From a virus: a stretch of 21,788 nucleotides of DNA. Positions 1,489 to 9,390 of the stretch are shown here, one piece after another. The stretch covers positions 1-21,788 of the IMG/VR virus record IMGVR_UViG_3300028623_000307; one strand, 5' to 3'. Within the stretch, counting starts at the first letter, position 1. Every line of letters begins with the position of its first letter. The notes beneath the pieces were generated by a model. That model made no database searches and was not told where the DNA came from. It worked only from the letters and a program-made list of their open reading frames with translations. The translations under genes and the position numbers were made by a program.

Positions 1489-1647
1489 ATGGACGACATT
1501 AATTTTGTATCAAGCTTAGTATCACAAGCAAACGCTCACGATCTTGAAGCAGAGGTAGTTTTGAGTGCCTTACAGGCTATGAAAGAGAATCCAAATCAGT
1601 CCATCCAAGATGCGATGGCAACCGGATTCAATGAATGGATCAAGTAA
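1489..1647 (+). CDS. Small acidic hypothetical protein, 52 residues
   Basis: A short frame starts one base after the preceding stop (ATGGACGACATT) and ends at a TAA that overlaps the next ATG (TAATG, 1645-1649). The product is acidic and helical (for example QANAHDLEAEVVLSALQAM), ending GFNEWIK. It fills a gap that would otherwise hold no gene and keeps the gapless gene arrangement. No family was recognised. Confidence 0.55.
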   Translation: MDDINFVSSLVSQANAHDLEAEVVLSALQAMKENPNQSIQDAMATGFNEWIK

Positions 1648-2216
1648 TGCATTGGAATCTACTGACACGACTTGTCAAGGAAAACCCAATTGAAGGATTC
1701 ACATGTGAGTTTCTTCCAAACGGTACCTACGACTACAATATGCCTTGTTATCGAACCAAAGAAGATTGTGGTGAATACCACCTAGAAATGCTTAGGTCTG
1801 TAAATAAGGATAAACGAACCATTCACGATGACCTCAACTTAGTAGGGCTAAAGTCACTTGATCTTGCTAAGAACAGATGCTATCTTACTGAAGGAACCTC
1901 AGACTTTATGTCTGTAAAACTTATAACCAATGAAAATGTCCTTGGAATCACAACCCTTTCGGGCAACTCAACCACAAAAAGGATAATCAAAGCCTTGTTT
2001 GATGAATACATTATTATCGGGGACAACGATTCTACCGGGATTAGCAACCTTATGTCACTATCCCGTGAGCTTAAGACAGCAGGAAAGCGATCACGCATAC
2101 TTATTCCGCCCGCAGGGTATAACGATGTCTCACAATGGCTGCTTCGTTGTGTTAACTCCGGAAACGTGCTAGGTAACGACCTTAAGCTTAAATTCCTACT
2201 TGAATTCTCGTATTAA
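1647..2216 (+). CDS. Stand-alone TOPRIM-domain protein, primase-like
   Basis: The 189-residue product carries a TOPRIM fold, the metal-binding nucleotidyl-transfer domain of DnaG-type primases, topoisomerases and OLD/RNase M5 nucleases. The first motif is YLTEGTSDFMSV, with E82 as the invariant glutamate. The second is YIIIGDNDSTG, with D126 and D128 as the DxD metal ligands and the following TG typical of primases. A conserved-looking YNDVSQWL (158-165) follows. The N-terminal about 70 residues contain C20, C34, C41 and H45, at most a degenerate zinc site, and no complete DnaG RNA-polymerase core. I chose the start at 1647 because it overlaps the upstream stop as TAATG; an in-frame ATG exists at 1635. 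It could be a split or minimal primase subunit, or a regulatory nuclease. Confidence 0.65.
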   Translation: MHWNLLTRLVKENPIEGFTCEFLPNGTYDYNMPCYRTKEDCGEYHLEMLRSVNKDKRTIHDDLNLVGLKSLDLAKNRCYLTEGTSDFMSVKLITNENVLGITTLSGNSTTKRIIKALFDEYIIIGDNDSTGISNLMSLSRELKTAGKRSRILIPPAGYNDVSQWLLRCVNSGNVLGNDLKLKFLLEFSY

Positions 2217-2569: not shown

Positions 2570-2884
2570 ATGTTTGACGAATTAACAAAGTATGCACCAG
2601 AGAATAAAGCATTTGTAGCTGACATTGAAGCTCATGCAGGTAAGAAGTTTGAAATACCACAAACTGACGAAGATAAGGAAACTATGAGTATCCTTTATTT
2701 TGGTTGGTTAATGGGCAAGTATGGTTCCAACTGGGAAGACAACGTCAAACCTTTGAACCTAAATATACCTGAGTTGTTCATTAATAATGTATCAGGCAGT
2801 CTTTATCAATGTGCCTCATGCCAGTTCTCAATGTGTTCAAAGTGTGCTTATTTACAGGAAGATTATAAGGAGAAATTTCTATGA
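2570..2884 (+). CDS. Small protein with C-terminal CxxC/CxxC zinc motif
   Basis: The 104-residue protein has a helical, acidic N-terminal part (FDELTKYAPENKAFVADIEA) and a compact C-terminal four-cysteine cluster C81-x2-C84-x4-C89-x2-C92, very likely a zinc knuckle or ribbon, perhaps an iron site. No catalytic motif is visible. The stop overlaps the start of the first ThyX-type gene as ATGA, so the two are probably translated together. A folding or partner role for this protein with the unusual ThyX is conceivable but unsupported. Confidence 0.6.
   Translation: MFDELTKYAPENKAFVADIEAHAGKKFEIPQTDEDKETMSILYFGWLMGKYGSNWEDNVKPLNLNIPELFINNVSGSLYQCASCQFSMCSKCAYLQEDYKEKFL
2867..2872 (+). promoter_or_regulatory. 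Shine-Dalgarno site for the first thyX-type gene
   Basis: AAGGAG lies 8 nt before ATG 2881. It is one of few good Shine-Dalgarno motifs in this window; most starts have A/T-rich leaders. It supports the 2881 start. Confidence 0.6.
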
Positions 2885-3498
2885 AGCTACAAGACCCGTC
2901 AGTTGAGATACTCACTAACATTCAGTATCCCAAGATGCTCAATACCATTCGAATGGCAATTGACATAAGGTATAAAACAGCAGGAGAAGAAAAGCTGGAA
3001 ACAGTAATCAGAAGGCTCACTAAAATTAATGGAAGTGGGCTTTCGCTGTTAGAGCACGAGTTGATTTCTGTTAAATTCATTTGTGATCGCAGGACTTCAC
3101 ACCGTTTGGTCCGCCATCGACTTTGTTCATTCTCTCAAGAGTCTACCAGTTACAGCAATTACATTGCAGAAGGTCATTTGACATTTATTTGCCACTCTAT
3201 ACCATCAAATAAGAAGCACTTGCAAGATTTATGGATGAATGGTTTAAAGTCTGTCGAGATGTGCTATTTTCAAGCACTTGAAGCAGGAATGCCACCGGAA
3301 GATGCTGCGTCCCTTTTACCGTCAGGATTAAAGACCGAGATAATGGTAACTGCAAATATAAGGCAGTGGCGTGAGATAATTAGACAGCGCACAGCTTCTA
3401 ACTCACATGGCGTCATGAAATCTTTGATGTCTGATCTATTGACACAATTCTGCATCAAGATGCCTGTATTCTTCAATGACTTAATAAAACCAATATAA
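2881..3498 (+). CDS. Divergent ThyX-type thymidylate synthase paralog
   Basis: The 205-residue protein belongs to the flavin-dependent thymidylate synthase (ThyX) family, which makes dTMP from dUMP using FAD and methylene-tetrahydrofolate. The signature R78-H-R80-x7-S88 is present and R170 near the C-terminus is kept (REIIRQRT). Two important positions differ from the family and from the adjacent copy. The GHxSxxEH motif reads SGLSLLEH, so His53 is Gly. The Arg two residues after S88 is Ser90 (STSY rather than STRY). The C-terminal HPQMR motif is also degraded to HGVMK. The protein is about 25 residues shorter than its neighbour, mainly in the insert before the C-terminal helices. The frame is intact, so it may be a folded non-catalytic or altered-substrate paralog, possibly assembling with the second copy, since ThyX active sites lie at tetramer interfaces. 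Confidence 0.8.
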   Translation: MKLQDPSVEILTNIQYPKMLNTIRMAIDIRYKTAGEEKLETVIRRLTKINGSGLSLLEHELISVKFICDRRTSHRLVRHRLCSFSQESTSYSNYIAEGHLTFICHSIPSNKKHLQDLWMNGLKSVEMCYFQALEAGMPPEDAASLLPSGLKTEIMVTANIRQWREIIRQRTASNSHGVMKSLMSDLLTQFCIKMPVFFNDLIKPI

Positions 3499-3500
3499 CA

Positions 3501-4193
3501 ATGAAACTTATCTACCCATCTTATGAGATTGAACCTTTGAACGTTCAACTCATCATTTCTAATATTGAGAAAGCAGGCAGAACTTGCTACAAGAGTGAAG
3601 AAGGTATAAAGCCAGATTCAGCTGAAGAGTTTATTACTAAGATAGTAGCTCGTGGTCATGAATCAGTTCTTGAGCATGAAAAGATGACAGTCAGGTTTAT
3701 ATGTGATCGCGGAGTAACCCACGAAATTGTAAGACATCGAATTGCATCATTCTCACAAGAATCTACCCGGTATTGTAACTATTCTAAGGACAAGTTTGAC
3801 AATCAACTCACATTCATCATCCCACCATGGGTACCTTTTCTTCCTGACGATAAATCAAGGGCATCCATCGACGACGCTTCCTTTGAGACAACCAAAGAAA
3901 TATTAGAATCAGATCCAATGCAAGGTGCTATGACTCTTTGGTTACAGGCTATGCAACAGGCACAGAATAATTATCTAGCCTTAATTAACGCAGGATGGCA
4001 ACCTCAGCAAGCTCGTTCAGTGCTTCCAAACTCTCTGAAGACCGAGATTGTGGTTACAGCAAACTTCCGGGAATGGAGAACCATCTTCAAACAACGCACT
4101 TCTCAAGCTGCACATCCTCAAATGAGAGAACTTATGCTTCCTTTACTATCCGAAGTAAGACAATATCTACCGTGTCTATTTAGTGATCTTTAA
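3501..4193 (+). CDS. thyX: Flavin-dependent thymidylate synthase ThyX
   Basis: The 230-residue protein makes dTMP de novo from dUMP with FAD, NADPH and methylene-tetrahydrofolate. All main ThyX landmarks are visible: AGRTCYKSEEG near 25-35, R51-G-H53-E-S-V-L-E-H59, the signature R78-H-R80-x7-S88-T-R90, and a C-terminal FREWRTIFKQRT with R199 followed by AAHPQMREL. Length is in the normal family range. It starts 2 nt after the stop of the paralog, with the same residue numbering through the signature, so a tandem duplication followed by divergence is likely. In phages ThyX supplies thymidylate for replication, which fits the clamp-loader gene downstream. Confidence 0.93.
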   Translation: MKLIYPSYEIEPLNVQLIISNIEKAGRTCYKSEEGIKPDSAEEFITKIVARGHESVLEHEKMTVRFICDRGVTHEIVRHRIASFSQESTRYCNYSKDKFDNQLTFIIPPWVPFLPDDKSRASIDDASFETTKEILESDPMQGAMTLWLQAMQQAQNNYLALINAGWQPQQARSVLPNSLKTEIVVTANFREWRTIFKQRTSQAAHPQMRELMLPLLSEVRQYLPCLFSDL

Positions 4194-4427: not shown

Positions 4428-4780
4428 TTTACCATCGGTTTAGATTTGGATTTAAGAAGAACCTTAAGGTTCTATTATGCAGGATAGTAGGACATAGGTT
4501 AAATGATGATCCTAAGTTCCAGTCATGCGGACGCTGTGGTCTTGCTTATGAGGAGTGCTACCATCCTCGTGATTATTTTGTAGAGTCAGGTATTGTAAAG
4601 GTATCAAAAGCAGAGAAGGAACTTTACTATGCTGAGTTAAGACGCACGCAAGAGAAATTTAAAAAGGAGAGTTTCTGGTCGTTATTCCCTTCATTGAGAC
4701 TGTTGTTTATTAGTGAGCATTTCTTTGATGAATTGATATACCGCTGGAGAGTATACAAACGTAAACCTGCAAAACAATGA
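4424..4780 (+). CDS. Small basic protein with CxxC motif
   Basis: The 118-residue basic protein has LLCRIVGHRL at 17-26, then SCGRCGLAYEECYH (34-47), a pattern reminiscent of the small prophage zinc proteins of the DUF1660 type (C..xGH..C.RCG). C19, H24, C35 and C38 are likely metal ligands. The C-terminal half is helical, charged and aromatic-rich (YRWRVYKRK). Start and stop are both ATGA overlaps with the DUF3820-like gene and the clamp-loader gene. Function unknown. Confidence 0.6.
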   Translation: MIYHRFRFGFKKNLKVLLCRIVGHRLNDDPKFQSCGRCGLAYEECYHPRDYFVESGIVKVSKAEKELYYAELRRTQEKFKKESFWSLFPSLRLLFISEHFFDELIYRWRVYKRKPAKQ

Positions 4781-5754
4781 TTTCTACCGATTACCGACCT
4801 AAACAATTCTCCGACGTACTGGGCCAAGATACACCAGTTGCAGTACTTAAACACCTAGCCAAGAGTGAAGGCATTGCTGCCAGATCAATCCTAATCAAGG
4901 GTGCTTGGGGCTCAGGTAAAACCACTGTTGCTAGAATCTTTGGCAAAGCTGTTAATTGTGAACGGTTTGCTGAACTTAATGATGTATGCAATGAGTGTGA
5001 AGGTTGTAAACAGGCAGAGCGTGTAAACTCTAGACATTATATTGAATATGATGCAACCAGAGTCGGGTCAGTTGAAGCCATCAGACAGATGGATTCTGTA
5101 TTCTCATCCCACGTGAAGGGTCGCAGAGTTCTAGTTTATGATGAAATTCACACTGCTTCACGACAAGCTCAATCTGCATTGTTGAAGATCCTTGAAGAAG
5201 GGGTTCCAAATACATTCATGGTATTTTGTACAACCGATGAAGTGATTGACACGATCAAATCCAGATCATGTGTTCTTGAAGTAGGACTAATTCCTCATGC
5301 AATTATTAAAGAACAGGTAAGAATTATATCAGTTGAGCGAGGAATAAGTTTAACAGAGAATCAGCTTGACACCCTCTCAATTAAGTCAAACGGTCACATG
5401 AGGGACGCTCTTCAAATATTAGAACTTTTCGAGATGGTTGGTGAAGAAGCTCTTAGATCACCTCTTCAACTCTTAAGAAAGTTCATGTATTTATCTCTGA
5501 AGAATGAAAGTATTGAAGACATACTTTCTGAGATAATGAAATACACATCAGGTGCTATAAGGGATTCATCTGCTGTGATGGTTAAGAATCTATTCCTATC
5601 GTCAGAGAAGTTGGAAACAACCATCAGACAAAAGGGACTGGCTGTAAAGATCTTTGAGATGTTCTACACCCCAGTTGCACAACAAGCATTGAACAGTGAA
5701 GTCGGAGTAGAAATCTTATTAAGAGCGGTAAATGAAAGGTTCCAACGTAGTTGA
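4777..5754 (+). CDS. DnaX-type clamp-loader ATPase subunit
   Basis: The 325-residue AAA+ ATPase resembles the gamma/tau (DnaX) subunit that loads the sliding clamp on DNA. Visible in order are the N-terminal YRPKQFSDVLGQ box (6-17), Walker A GAWGSGKTT (42-50), the DnaX zinc module C61, C71-x2-C74-x2-C77, Walker B RVLVYDEIH (117-125), sensor 1 CTTDE (151-155), an arginine-finger region IKSRSCV (160-166, one residue different from the usual SRC), and sensor 2 GHMRDAL (206-212). It ends after a short C-terminal collar region, so it has gamma length and lacks tau extensions. No other clamp-loader subunit lies in the window. It overlaps the sigma-like gene by 23 nt, which is suggestive because T4 late transcription needs a loaded clamp. 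Confidence 0.88.
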   Translation: MISTDYRPKQFSDVLGQDTPVAVLKHLAKSEGIAARSILIKGAWGSGKTTVARIFGKAVNCERFAELNDVCNECEGCKQAERVNSRHYIEYDATRVGSVEAIRQMDSVFSSHVKGRRVLVYDEIHTASRQAQSALLKILEEGVPNTFMVFCTTDEVIDTIKSRSCVLEVGLIPHAIIKEQVRIISVERGISLTENQLDTLSIKSNGHMRDALQILELFEMVGEEALRSPLQLLRKFMYLSLKNESIEDILSEIMKYTSGAIRDSSAVMVKNLFLSSEKLETTIRQKGLAVKIFEMFYTPVAQQALNSEVGVEILLRAVNERFQRS

Positions 5755-6304: not shown

Positions 6305-6800
6305 CAATCAAGTGACCAACATGGTAGTGAAGGTTCTGGAGGGACAGTCAACCACAGAGCAAGTAGGGATATTCAACCGACTGTTGAATACAGCTTTAGC
6401 ACAGGATTTAGTGCAAGGACAGCAAGCTCTGATTAGAACCCTTTCAGGATTTGAAGAGGTATCTCAAAAGTTACAGAATGCAATTGACCAGAAGTTACAG
6501 GTAGAGGTGGAAACAATGGAACTCAAGGAATTATTTGAGTACTACGAAAAGATCCAAAGCTATGCATTGCGTGTACTGGACTTACAGAGAAAGATTGTAC
6601 AAGGTAAGGATTTATTCCCATCCGATATATTGTCAGAAGAGGAGAAAGCATTTTTATCCATCCTGAAATCATTCAGGACAGATGCAGAAAAGACCGACTT
6701 TGTAAATAAGATCAAACAGATTCAAGCAGAAAAAGATGCCAAGCAACCAACATCCACAGACACCGATCCTGACACCGAGAAATCAGACTTCGAAGACTAA
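6297..6800 (+). CDS. Probable small terminase subunit
   Basis: The 167-residue protein is largely alpha-helical with a central coiled-coil-like stretch (about 45-105: VSQKLQNAIDQKLQVEVETM, then LFEYYEKIQSYALRVL) and an acidic, Thr/Asp-rich tail (TDTDPDTEKSDFED). Size and position directly before the large terminase match T4 gp16 (164 residues), the DNA-recognition subunit of the packaging motor. Sequence alone gives no diagnostic motif, so the call rests on position, length and helical character. It overlaps the sigma-like gene by 8 nt and the large terminase by 65 nt. Confidence 0.5.
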   Translation: MDNNQVTNMVVKVLEGQSTTEQVGIFNRLLNTALAQDLVQGQQALIRTLSGFEEVSQKLQNAIDQKLQVEVETMELKELFEYYEKIQSYALRVLDLQRKIVQGKDLFPSDILSEEEKAFLSILKSFRTDAEKTDFVNKIKQIQAEKDAKQPTSTDTDPDTEKSDFED

Positions 6801-9390
6801 TCACATTGACCAGATAGAGAATTTCCTATTCACGTCCAAGAAACCAGTGTCATTCCGTGAATTTTGCGATAGCCCCGATTATATGGGGCTATCTGGTTTA
6901 TATGAGTTTTGGAAGAAAGAGCTCAACCCTATTTCAGATGACATCAATGAAATCCTATTCGACGGATCACTTGGTACAGGTAAATGTATACCCGGCCACT
7001 GTAGAGTAGCATCAAATCACGGATATCAGCCAATTGAGTACTTTAAGAAGTTGGTGTCAGGGGATAAATTTGGTGGAATGAGACCAATAAACGATGTGAT
7101 GCTTATGCAACACAACGGAACTGATAGGGCAACAACTCATTTCTACGAACAATCAAAATGTGATGTTGTAAATCTACACCTAAGCAATAAATTGACAGTG
7201 TCAGGTACACAGAATCACAAGATACAGACTATGGAAGGTCCAATGATGGCTACCAAAGACTGGACAATCGGAGATTTAGTACCTCTCAACCATAGCATCA
7301 TGTTCTATGGTCAGTCCACAATTTGTAGTAGGCGAGCTTTCAAAGTAGGTGTGTTGTATAAATTCGCTGTATTATATGGTTATTACGGATCATTGACAGA
7401 GAAACCCGGCTTCGAGTTGAATATTGTAGATAATGTGTACAGGTGTACCGATCCTGATATTAACGCTATAAGCTATCTTGACATCCTGAATGAATCAGTT
7501 GAGGTACGGGTAGCATTTCTCAAGGGGTTAGTGTCTAACAAAGGTTTAAAGATATTCACCAGTGAGTCACGTGATTTTGTATCAGCATTGTTAACCTCAC
7601 TGGGAATAGTTCATAAAGCAGGAACTAATTCAATCACAGTTGCTGAGTTCTCGAAACAGCTATTTCTTGACTTCTTGAAGGGAACACCAACTGATCGGAT
7701 TAAATACTCTGACAAGTTCTACTATGTAATTGATAACAAGGTTTGTTGTAAGATTGAATATGTCACCCACACAGTTGAAGATGTTTATGATTTTGTAGTT
7801 CCAAGCACTCACCGTTTTGTTGCTCAGGGAGTCCTAAATCATAATACGACTGCCTCAAATGCTTTTCTACTCTACCGCCTTTATAAACTATTCCTGAATG
7901 GAGATCCTCGCTACCGGCTAGGTATCATGGACAACTCACCAGTCTACATTATCTATTTCTCTGTATCATTGAAGATGGCTGAGAAGTCTGGTTATAAGCA
8001 GTTGAAATCTATGATTGACCATTCAACATGGTTTAAGAACAACGCACCACGTGATAAAGCACTCGAGTCTGTAATTAAACTTCCTTATGACTTTGAGATT
8101 GACTCAGCATCAGCAGAAGGCCACCAGATTGGTTTGAATGTTTGGGCATTCATCTTAGATGAAGCTAACTTCCGGTCAGGTACAGGCTCAGGTCTGGTTG
8201 AAGAGTACGAAGAAGTAACACAGTTGTATCAGCAGTTAGTTGACAGGCAGATAACCCGTTTCATGACCCGTGAAGGTATGAACACCATCAGTATTCTGAT
8301 ATCATCTGCATCGTATCAGTCCTCATTTATGGAAAAGAGGAAGAGAGATCTGGAAGGTGAAAAGAGTGTGAAGATTATAACCTCAGTAGGTTACAAGATA
8401 AAACCAGAGAAGTATTCTAAGGAGATGTTCGAAGTTTTTGTTGGTACCACCATGATGTCACCAATTATAATCAAGGACGAACATCACAAGCGTGTAATCC
8501 TGAGACAACTGCATATGGAGGATATGTCTGCTGTGTCTGATAAATTCTTTGAGAAGGTACCGGAATCACTTCGCAAGCAGTATGAATTGAATATCAATCT
8601 AGCATTACAGAACCACTCTGGAGTAGCAACACAATCAGAAGACAAGTTTGTTCACAACATGGATCTGGTTAGAACAGCTTATGTTGAAGACATCCATCCA
8701 TGGTTTATAAACAATATTGTTACGCTTTCTAATAAGGATGATGTTCAGTTGATTTACTATCTTCAACCGGAGAATATGCACGAGCTTGAGAAACCTCACT
8801 CAATATTCCTTGACTTATCAATATCAGGTGACGCAGGAGGTTTATCATGTACAAGGTTTGACGGTATAGTTAATGGTGTTAAGAAGCATACTCATGTATT
8901 TACACTTGAAATAGTCCCACCACCTTACCCGGGTGAAACCAAGATATCAAAGATCAAGGATTTCATTGTGATGCTGGCTGAGATTGTAAACCTATCAGCA
9001 TTTGGTAGTGACCAGTATCAATCAAAAGGGATAAGACAAGAGATTCTTGCTGAACTTGATCTGGTTGATACTCGTCTATCCATTGACTCATCAGATGAAT
9101 TCTTCCTCTTGTGGATAAGAGCTCTGGTTGAAGAACGATTCCAAATGCTATTTATCAAGAAGCTCGAGACTGAAATAGAGGAAGCTAAACACGATTTAAA
9201 GAGACGAAGAATAACCAGAAACAACAAGTCTACCGATGACTTATTCCAATCTTTAGTAGGATCATTTTTCCTATCCGAGACAGTAAGCTCACTGGGTGAT
9301 AATGATATTGGGTCGCTATATCGTGATAGAATAAATTTAGTGGGTGGTAATTCAGTTAGAAAGATGATGAGAAGTTTAGGATTTTCTTAA
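6736..9390 (+). CDS. Large terminase subunit (TerL), intein-containing precursor
   Basis: The 884-residue precursor splices to a 597-residue TerL (T4 gp17 is 610), the ATP-driven motor and nuclease that packages DNA into proheads. N-extein residues 1-83 end in GSLGTGK, the first part of Walker A. After the intein, TT completes it. Walker B is AFILDEAN with D475 and E476 (precursor numbering). The C-terminal RNase H-like nuclease shows FLDLSISGD (D693, D699), FGSDQYQS (D759) and STDDLFQSLVGSFF (D834/D835), the usual three acidic clusters. The visible ATG 6736 overlaps the upstream gene by 65 nt; recognisable terminase similarity begins only near residue 38 (PVSFREFCDSPDY), so the real start could be a nearby non-ATG codon. 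Without splicing the ATPase would be inactive. Confidence 0.93.
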   Translation: MPSNQHPQTPILTPRNQTSKTNHIDQIENFLFTSKKPVSFREFCDSPDYMGLSGLYEFWKKELNPISDDINEILFDGSLGTGKCIPGHCRVASNHGYQPIEYFKKLVSGDKFGGMRPINDVMLMQHNGTDRATTHFYEQSKCDVVNLHLSNKLTVSGTQNHKIQTMEGPMMATKDWTIGDLVPLNHSIMFYGQSTICSRRAFKVGVLYKFAVLYGYYGSLTEKPGFELNIVDNVYRCTDPDINAISYLDILNESVEVRVAFLKGLVSNKGLKIFTSESRDFVSALLTSLGIVHKAGTNSITVAEFSKQLFLDFLKGTPTDRIKYSDKFYYVIDNKVCCKIEYVTHTVEDVYDFVVPSTHRFVAQGVLNHNTTASNAFLLYRLYKLFLNGDPRYRLGIMDNSPVYIIYFSVSLKMAEKSGYKQLKSMIDHSTWFKNNAPRDKALESVIKLPYDFEIDSASAEGHQIGLNVWAFILDEANFRSGTGSGLVEEYEEVTQLYQQLVDRQITRFMTREGMNTISILISSASYQSSFMEKRKRDLEGEKSVKIITSVGYKIKPEKYSKEMFEVFVGTTMMSPIIIKDEHHKRVILRQLHMEDMSAVSDKFFEKVPESLRKQYELNINLALQNHSGVATQSEDKFVHNMDLVRTAYVEDIHPWFINNIVTLSNKDDVQLIYYLQPENMHELEKPHSIFLDLSISGDAGGLSCTRFDGIVNGVKKHTHVFTLEIVPPPYPGETKISKIKDFIVMLAEIVNLSAFGSDQYQSKGIRQEILAELDLVDTRLSIDSSDEFFLLWIRALVEERFQMLFIKKLETEIEEAKHDLKRRRITRNNKSTDDLFQSLVGSFFLSETVSSLGDNDIGSLYRDRINLVGGNSVRKMMRSLGFS
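6868..6893 (+). other. Perfect 9-bp hairpin inside terL
   Basis: GATAGCCCC (6868-6876) pairs perfectly with GGGGCTATC (6885-6893) around an 8-nt loop, and outer AAACCA (6841-6846) can pair with TGGTTT (6894-6899). It is GC-rich in AT-rich surroundings and has no T-run, so it is not a standard terminator. It lies about 90 nt before the intein, in the early terL coding region. Confidence 0.5.
6985..7845 (+). mobile_element. Intein in the TerL Walker A motif, with decayed endonuclease
   Basis: A 287-residue in-frame insert splits GTGK from TT. It begins with Cys1 (CIPGHCRVAS, block A). It has block B SGTQNHKI with T75 and H78, block F VEDVYDFVV..HRFVAQG (264-282), and block G ending VLNHN with H286 and N287; the +1 extein residue is Thr. 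All residues needed for class 1 splicing are present. The central region (about 110-240) resembles a LAGLIDADG homing endonuclease. The second motif reads FLKGLVSNKG (178-187), where the family has FLRGLFDADG, so the catalytic Asp is Lys186. The first motif region (LYGYYGS) also lacks its acid. Hence splicing is likely intact but homing is probably lost. Confidence 0.9.

Follow-up and report, generated by a model that had tools for sequence, protein, structure and literature searches.

Flavin-dependent thymidylate synthase (ThyX) normally has one job and a near-unchanging residue set. Its active site is a composite common to three subunits (PMC6514825, PMC5954106, PMC11940539), and the initial annotation of the locus described here had likewise taken it to be shared between subunits. 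FAD binds to the RHR of subunit A and to one Ser and one Arg from subunit B, and dUMP to subunits A and C (PMC6514825). H53 stacks on flavin or folate, the loop spanning residues 27-37 gates folate, and a hydrogen bond between H53 and Y91 has been described as stabilising the flavin 'OFF' form (PMC11940539). R174 activates uracil, and S88 and Y91, aided by R90, assist carbon transfer; in T. maritima (Tm) ThyX the substitutions S88A, R90A and Y91A each cause a large fall in the rate of dUMP-triggered carbinolamine consumption (PMC8316439).

Paralogues that depart from this role have been described in bacteria. In Streptomyces, PolB and SVIThyX2 are UMP-methylating ThyX paralogues that stand, as a second and diverged ThyX, beside a housekeeping one, and PolB serves nucleoside antibiotic synthesis (PMC5003785). 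The atypical ThyX of Corynebacterium glutamicum (3FNN, 3GE9) is comparable in that its deposited title calls it dispensable for thymidylate synthesis, but it is encoded by a bacterial genome and keeps both the RHR and a canonical-looking S-x-R motif. In the literature we found no report of two thyX genes in phages, nor of ThyX heterotetramers. To our knowledge, no hetero-oligomeric or re-substrated ThyX from a phage is known. Here we analyze a phage locus with two adjacent ThyX genes, the first of which (copy 1) retains the flavin and uracil-ring residues and has dropped the folate histidine and two arginines. In copy 1, nature provides a test of the step that each residue serves in the ThyX reaction; its study could uncover a new nucleotide-modifying enzyme or, alternatively, a mixed ThyX tetramer.

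Two adjacent ThyX genes in a phage replication module

The window analyzed is the whole of the IMG/VR viral record IMGVR_UViG_3300028623_000307, 21,788 bases that probably represent a fragment. Its gene order runs from a replication module, containing a Toprim-like ORF and a clamp loader, through a terminase gene with an intein-like insert to capsid and tail-like genes (Table 1). The tandem ThyX pair first reported at 2881-4193 is indeed present there, with both ORFs well above the Pfam Thy1 cut-off, head to tail and flanked by replication genes. The start of copy 1 overlaps the end of the preceding ORF by 4 bases (ATGA), and only 2 bases separate its stop from the start of the second gene (copy 2).

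Table 1. Positions of the ThyX genes, of their neighbours in the window and of comparable phage genes elsewhere
Feature	Position	Strand	Remarks
Toprim-like ORF	1635..2216	+	Pfam Toprim_2, E 3.1e-6; replication module, upstream of the ThyX pair
ORF, 104 aa, no family	2570..2884	+	Cys-rich C-terminal part; contains SD-like AAGGAG
Copy 1, divergent ThyX-like protein, 205 aa	2881..3498	+	Pfam Thy1, E 1.9e-27
Copy 2, canonical flavin-dependent thymidylate synthase ThyX, 230 aa	3501..4193	+	Pfam Thy1, E 1.5e-50
DNA polymerase clamp loader	4777..5754	+	phrog_5846, E 4.2e-43; replication module, downstream of the ThyX pair
Terminase large subunit	6736-9390		Intein-like insert
Divergent Thy1 protein, ~316 aa, L075	2206-3156	+	RHR and Tm R147/R174 positions kept
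Divergent Thy1 protein, ~316 aa, L078	2200-3153	+	RHR and Tm R147/R174 positions kept
Divergent Thy1 protein, ~316 aa, Geobacillus phage GR1 (OK896991)	28752-29720		RHR and Tm R147/R174 positions kept

Copy 1 had also been credited with the best Shine-Dalgarno (SD) sequence of the region. The site is real and is the strongest found (-9.3 kcal/mol), but we regard it as weak evidence of expression because it sits within the last codons of the ORF ahead of copy 1 and because most gene starts of the window have no SD. Strong sites occur only at 2881, 18904, 19529 and 20307, the last three being the starts of the last three genes of the window, and this scarcity hints that the host may not rely on SD sequences. 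The insert in the terminase large subunit interrupts the Walker A motif (GTGK / TT); it matches Pfam Intein_splicing with an E-value of 8e-6, which is below the curated cut-off, and no endonuclease domain was recognised in it.

Copy 2 carries the canonical ThyX residues

Copy 2 satisfies both the Thy1 profile and the RHRx7S motif with its S88-x-R90 arrangement (RHRIASFSQESTRY), and its numbering through R90 is that of T. maritima ThyX. In an alignment with 290 other ThyX proteins, drawn from viral contigs and bacterial genomes, it carries H53, R78-H79-R80, S88, R90, R172 (Tm R147) and R199 (Tm R174), and it agrees with the described enzymes of the family (PF02511; T. maritima TM0449, M. tuberculosis ThyX) at all residues tested. 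Its phage relatives reach 62% identity. In the explanation of the pair that we tentatively prefer (see below), copy 2 would be the working thymidylate synthase of the phage.

Copy 1 has lost residues that are invariant in ThyX

Copy 1 is 37% identical to copy 2 over its length and matches the Thy1 profile with 96.7 bits, against a curated cut-off of 24.8. The initial annotation had assigned H53 and R90 to copy 2 and G53 and S90 to copy 1, and the alignment bears out all four assignments. Position 90 is Arg in each of the 290 homologues and Ser in copy 1. Position 172, which corresponds to Tm R147 and PolB R166 because it always lies 27 residues before R199 (Tm R174, PolB R193), is likewise Arg in 290 of 290 and is Ala (A143) in copy 1. 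At position 53 the homologues have His (225), Asp (63, a count inflated by one contributing scan that picked non-His sequences) or Asn (2). Since R90 is never replaced and Gly never occurs at position 53 in this alignment, chance is, on these sequences, excluded as the source of the changes at the two positions.

The original description of two lost key residues was correct for H53 and R90 and understated the extent of the change, which also takes in the third nucleotide arginine, Tm R147, together with R27, S32, E33 and P206, as well as the replacement of G71 and E75 by Arg. Among 35 near-invariant columns (at least 95% conserved), copy 1 keeps 26 and loses nine (E23, R27, S32, E33, G71, E75, R90, R172 and P206), more than any other full-length homologue. 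R27 is replaced by D28 of copy 1, the folate-loop residues R27, S32 and E33 are gone together, and with the loss of P206 the motif HPQMR reads HGVMK, the degraded form noted at the outset. The columns that are kept include R70, the R78-H79-R80 and S88 of the FAD/dUMP motif RHRx7S, Q86-E87-S88-T89, and N188, R190, R199 and H205 (N159, R161, R170 and H176 in the numbering of copy 1, at the positions of Tm N163, R165, R174 and H178); Y91 and S55 are retained as well. Copy 1 therefore resembles TM0449 and M. tuberculosis ThyX in fold, RHR, S88-x-x-Y91 and the four C-terminal positions, and differs from them in lacking H53, R90, R147, R27 and the KSE residues of the folate loop and in having R71 and R75.

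These differences bear on whether copy 1 could still be an ordinary, if slower, thymidylate synthase in which R71 and R75 stand in for the lost arginines. Single losses do not abolish binding, as T. maritima R90A, H53A and H53D have, by the titles of their entries, been crystallised with dUMP (5IOS, 4GTF, 4KAS), and Asp stands at position 53 in 63 natural viral homologues. In copy 1, however, H53 (flavin/folate stacking), the dUMP arginines R90 and R147 and the folate loop are all altered together, when S88A, R90A or Y91A alone already sharply cuts the carbinolamine rate of Tm ThyX (PMC8316439), and with copy 2 present the phage would have no need of another full synthase. We consider such an enzyme very improbable; judged by its residues, copy 1 is probably not an ordinary thymidylate synthase.

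The alignment also shows that positions 53 and 91 change together in nature, since His53 is paired with Tyr91 in 224 of 225 sequences and a viral clade with Asp53, recovered by the scan for ThyX without His53 (L149-L213), has Phe91 in 60 of 63 and usually also His30.

Copy 1 is intact and predicted to fold as ThyX

The reading frame of copy 1, initially called intact, is so, and its codon usage agrees with the coding frame. The AlphaFold model, built with a homologue alignment, has a pLDDT of 88.6 and a pTM of 0.85, and its best fold matches in the PDB are ThyX chains, with TM scores of up to 0.83. When sequences were evolved neutrally to the same divergence (42% identity) they acquired a mean of 7.6 stops, and only 1 of 300 runs remained stop-free, so random decay of copy 1 is unlikely.

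Copy 1 sits on a very long branch (3.14, against a median of 0.58). A tree in which copies 1 and 2 are sisters lies 8 log units above the free tree and is not rejected (p-AU 0.69); together with the long branch this makes a local duplication followed by fast change plausible, although not proven. The same in-situ duplication could have left copy 1 as a recently released, decaying or non-catalytic remnant that has yet to acquire a stop, a reading with which its singleton status, very long branch and lost invariant residues agree. The stops expected of a neutral gene at this divergence, the high-confidence fold (with the homologue alignment in its input) and the fact that the residues kept are the family's own conserved ones all speak against such a remnant, which we place third among the explanations and judge distinctly unlikely.

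An apparent exchange of arginines at the phosphate site

In PolB one monomer contributes residues 79, 82 and 83 to the phosphate contacts, and the neighbouring monomer contributes S96', A97', R98' and R166' (PMC5003785). With an offset of 8 these correspond to positions 71, 74 and 75 and to positions 88, 89 and 90, plus 172. The neighbour side of copy 1 has thus lost both of its arginines (R90 and R172), and the opposite monomer has gained two, at positions 71 and 75 (G71R, E75R), where none of the 290 homologues has Arg or Lys. Copy 1 departs from the consensus at 106 positions and has Arg at six of them; the chance that two of them fall at these particular sites is ~0.003, for a swap that was noticed post hoc. 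The phosphate clamp of copy 1 looks to have moved to the other subunit. PolB, by contrast, keeps both phosphate arginines (R98 and R166) and has activity with dUMP, and the S90 and A143 of copy 1 at these positions set it apart from UMP methylases of the PolB type, as does its origin in a phage.

Models for the function of copy 1

The explanation that we favour, tentatively and at somewhat less than an even chance, is that copy 1 is a strongly diverged and probably neofunctionalised ThyX flavoprotein with a rewired nucleotide/folate site, that is, a paralogue retained as a folded protein whose function has changed. Copy 1 would most likely still form a ThyX-type oligomer and bind FAD via the RHR, S55 and R165. 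It retains the residues for uracil-ring and one-carbon chemistry (R78, S88, Y91 and Tm R174), has given up the folate-holding histidine and loop and two of the dUMP-phosphate arginines, and has gained R71 and R75 where the other subunit contacts the phosphate. The likely outcome would be a flavoenzyme that uses another nucleotide or another carbon donor, or that carries out a half-reaction, in place of ordinary dTMP synthesis. UMP methylation by PolB is a precedent for such a change (PMC5003785). Loss of invariant residues and a very long branch would, however, also fit relaxed selection.

The composite nature of ThyX sites also allows copy 1 to be the partner of copy 2 in a mixed tetramer, as had been suggested initially. 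In PolB, R90 and R147 share one (primed) face of the site (PMC5003785). Copy 1, which keeps the catalytic residues of the opposite face, would supply that face (RHR, FAD and Tm R174), and copy 2 the face with R90 and R147, and with H53 if it is on that side. A 2+2 tetramer with like subunits on the right dyad would have two complete and two dead sites among its four and would act as a regulated or half-sites enzyme. The adjacency of the genes, 2 bases apart, and the shared fold are consistent with such a partnership. Copy 1 has, however, also kept S88, T89, Y91 and R70 of the primed face, which would be superfluous on a dead face; their retention suggests that its own site is still used and argues against a partner role, as does the failure to find a conserved pair in relatives. 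The mixed tetramer ranks second and is, in our judgement, unlikely. The kept loop (S88, T89 and Y91) and the new arginines on the opposite face would fit a re-tuned site in copy 1 better than a dead partner.

Combining these elements, copy 1 might be a ThyX-derived phage flavoenzyme that lacks a normal folate site, has its phosphate clamp on the other subunit and makes a modified pyrimidine or performs a partial reaction, either alone or in a mixed tetramer with copy 2; as a complete proposal we rate this as rather doubtful. Within the 21.8 kb of this contig fragment we recognised no genes for base modification, and neither a substrate nor a modification pathway for copy 1 is evident there.

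The pair in other phages

Scans of 2.9 million viral contigs revealed neither a second example of copy 1 or of the pair nor a close relative of the phage, and a search of viral contigs with copy 1 alone returned no relatives. Neither the Ser90 motif of copy 1 nor any other non-Arg90 residue turned up in pattern scans. A scan for ThyX without His53 returned 65 stretches, of which 64 are ThyX proteins that all carry R90; copy 1 itself fits this pattern, and an orthologue with the same residues should therefore have surfaced. Nor did the initially proposed check for a conserved pair in relatives reveal one: among about 290 fetched ThyX loci, no other case of two adjacent Thy1 genes was found apart from the unrelated L075 and L078, and a single Thy1 is present in 49 of 50 relative contigs. 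Annotations of ThyX as 'x2' in crAss-like phages were rejected as a pair, being two pieces of one split gene.

Neither a terminase scan nor a nucleotide search identified a close relative of the window's phage; a 46% relative of its capsid protein lies in a human-faecal phage fragment that carries no annotation. As far as seen, the pair is not conserved. Because no orthologue was found, the maintenance of copy 1 over time is inferred from one sequence.

Among the fetched loci, ThyX ORFs of ~530-560 aa in L153, L188, L191, L195 (cut by the contig end), L204 and L213 contain intein-like inserts, either within the active-site loop or immediately ahead of E58.

In the IMG/VR contigs L075 and L078 a very divergent Thy1 protein of ~316 aa is encoded 0.8 kb from a canonical ThyX and is related to a protein of Geobacillus phage GR1 (Table 1). 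As in copy 1, this is a second phage Thy1 without H53 and without the S88-x-R90 arrangement. It differs from copy 1, to which it is related only at the family level, in its length, in keeping Tm R147, in lacking S88 and in its location among genes of nucleotide metabolism. The L075 protein is accompanied by a deoxyribosyltransferase-like gene, an HD hydrolase, a deaminase and the canonical ThyX, and that of GR1 by a glycosyltransferase and a nitroreductase, neighbourhoods that possibly represent a nucleotide-modification cassette.
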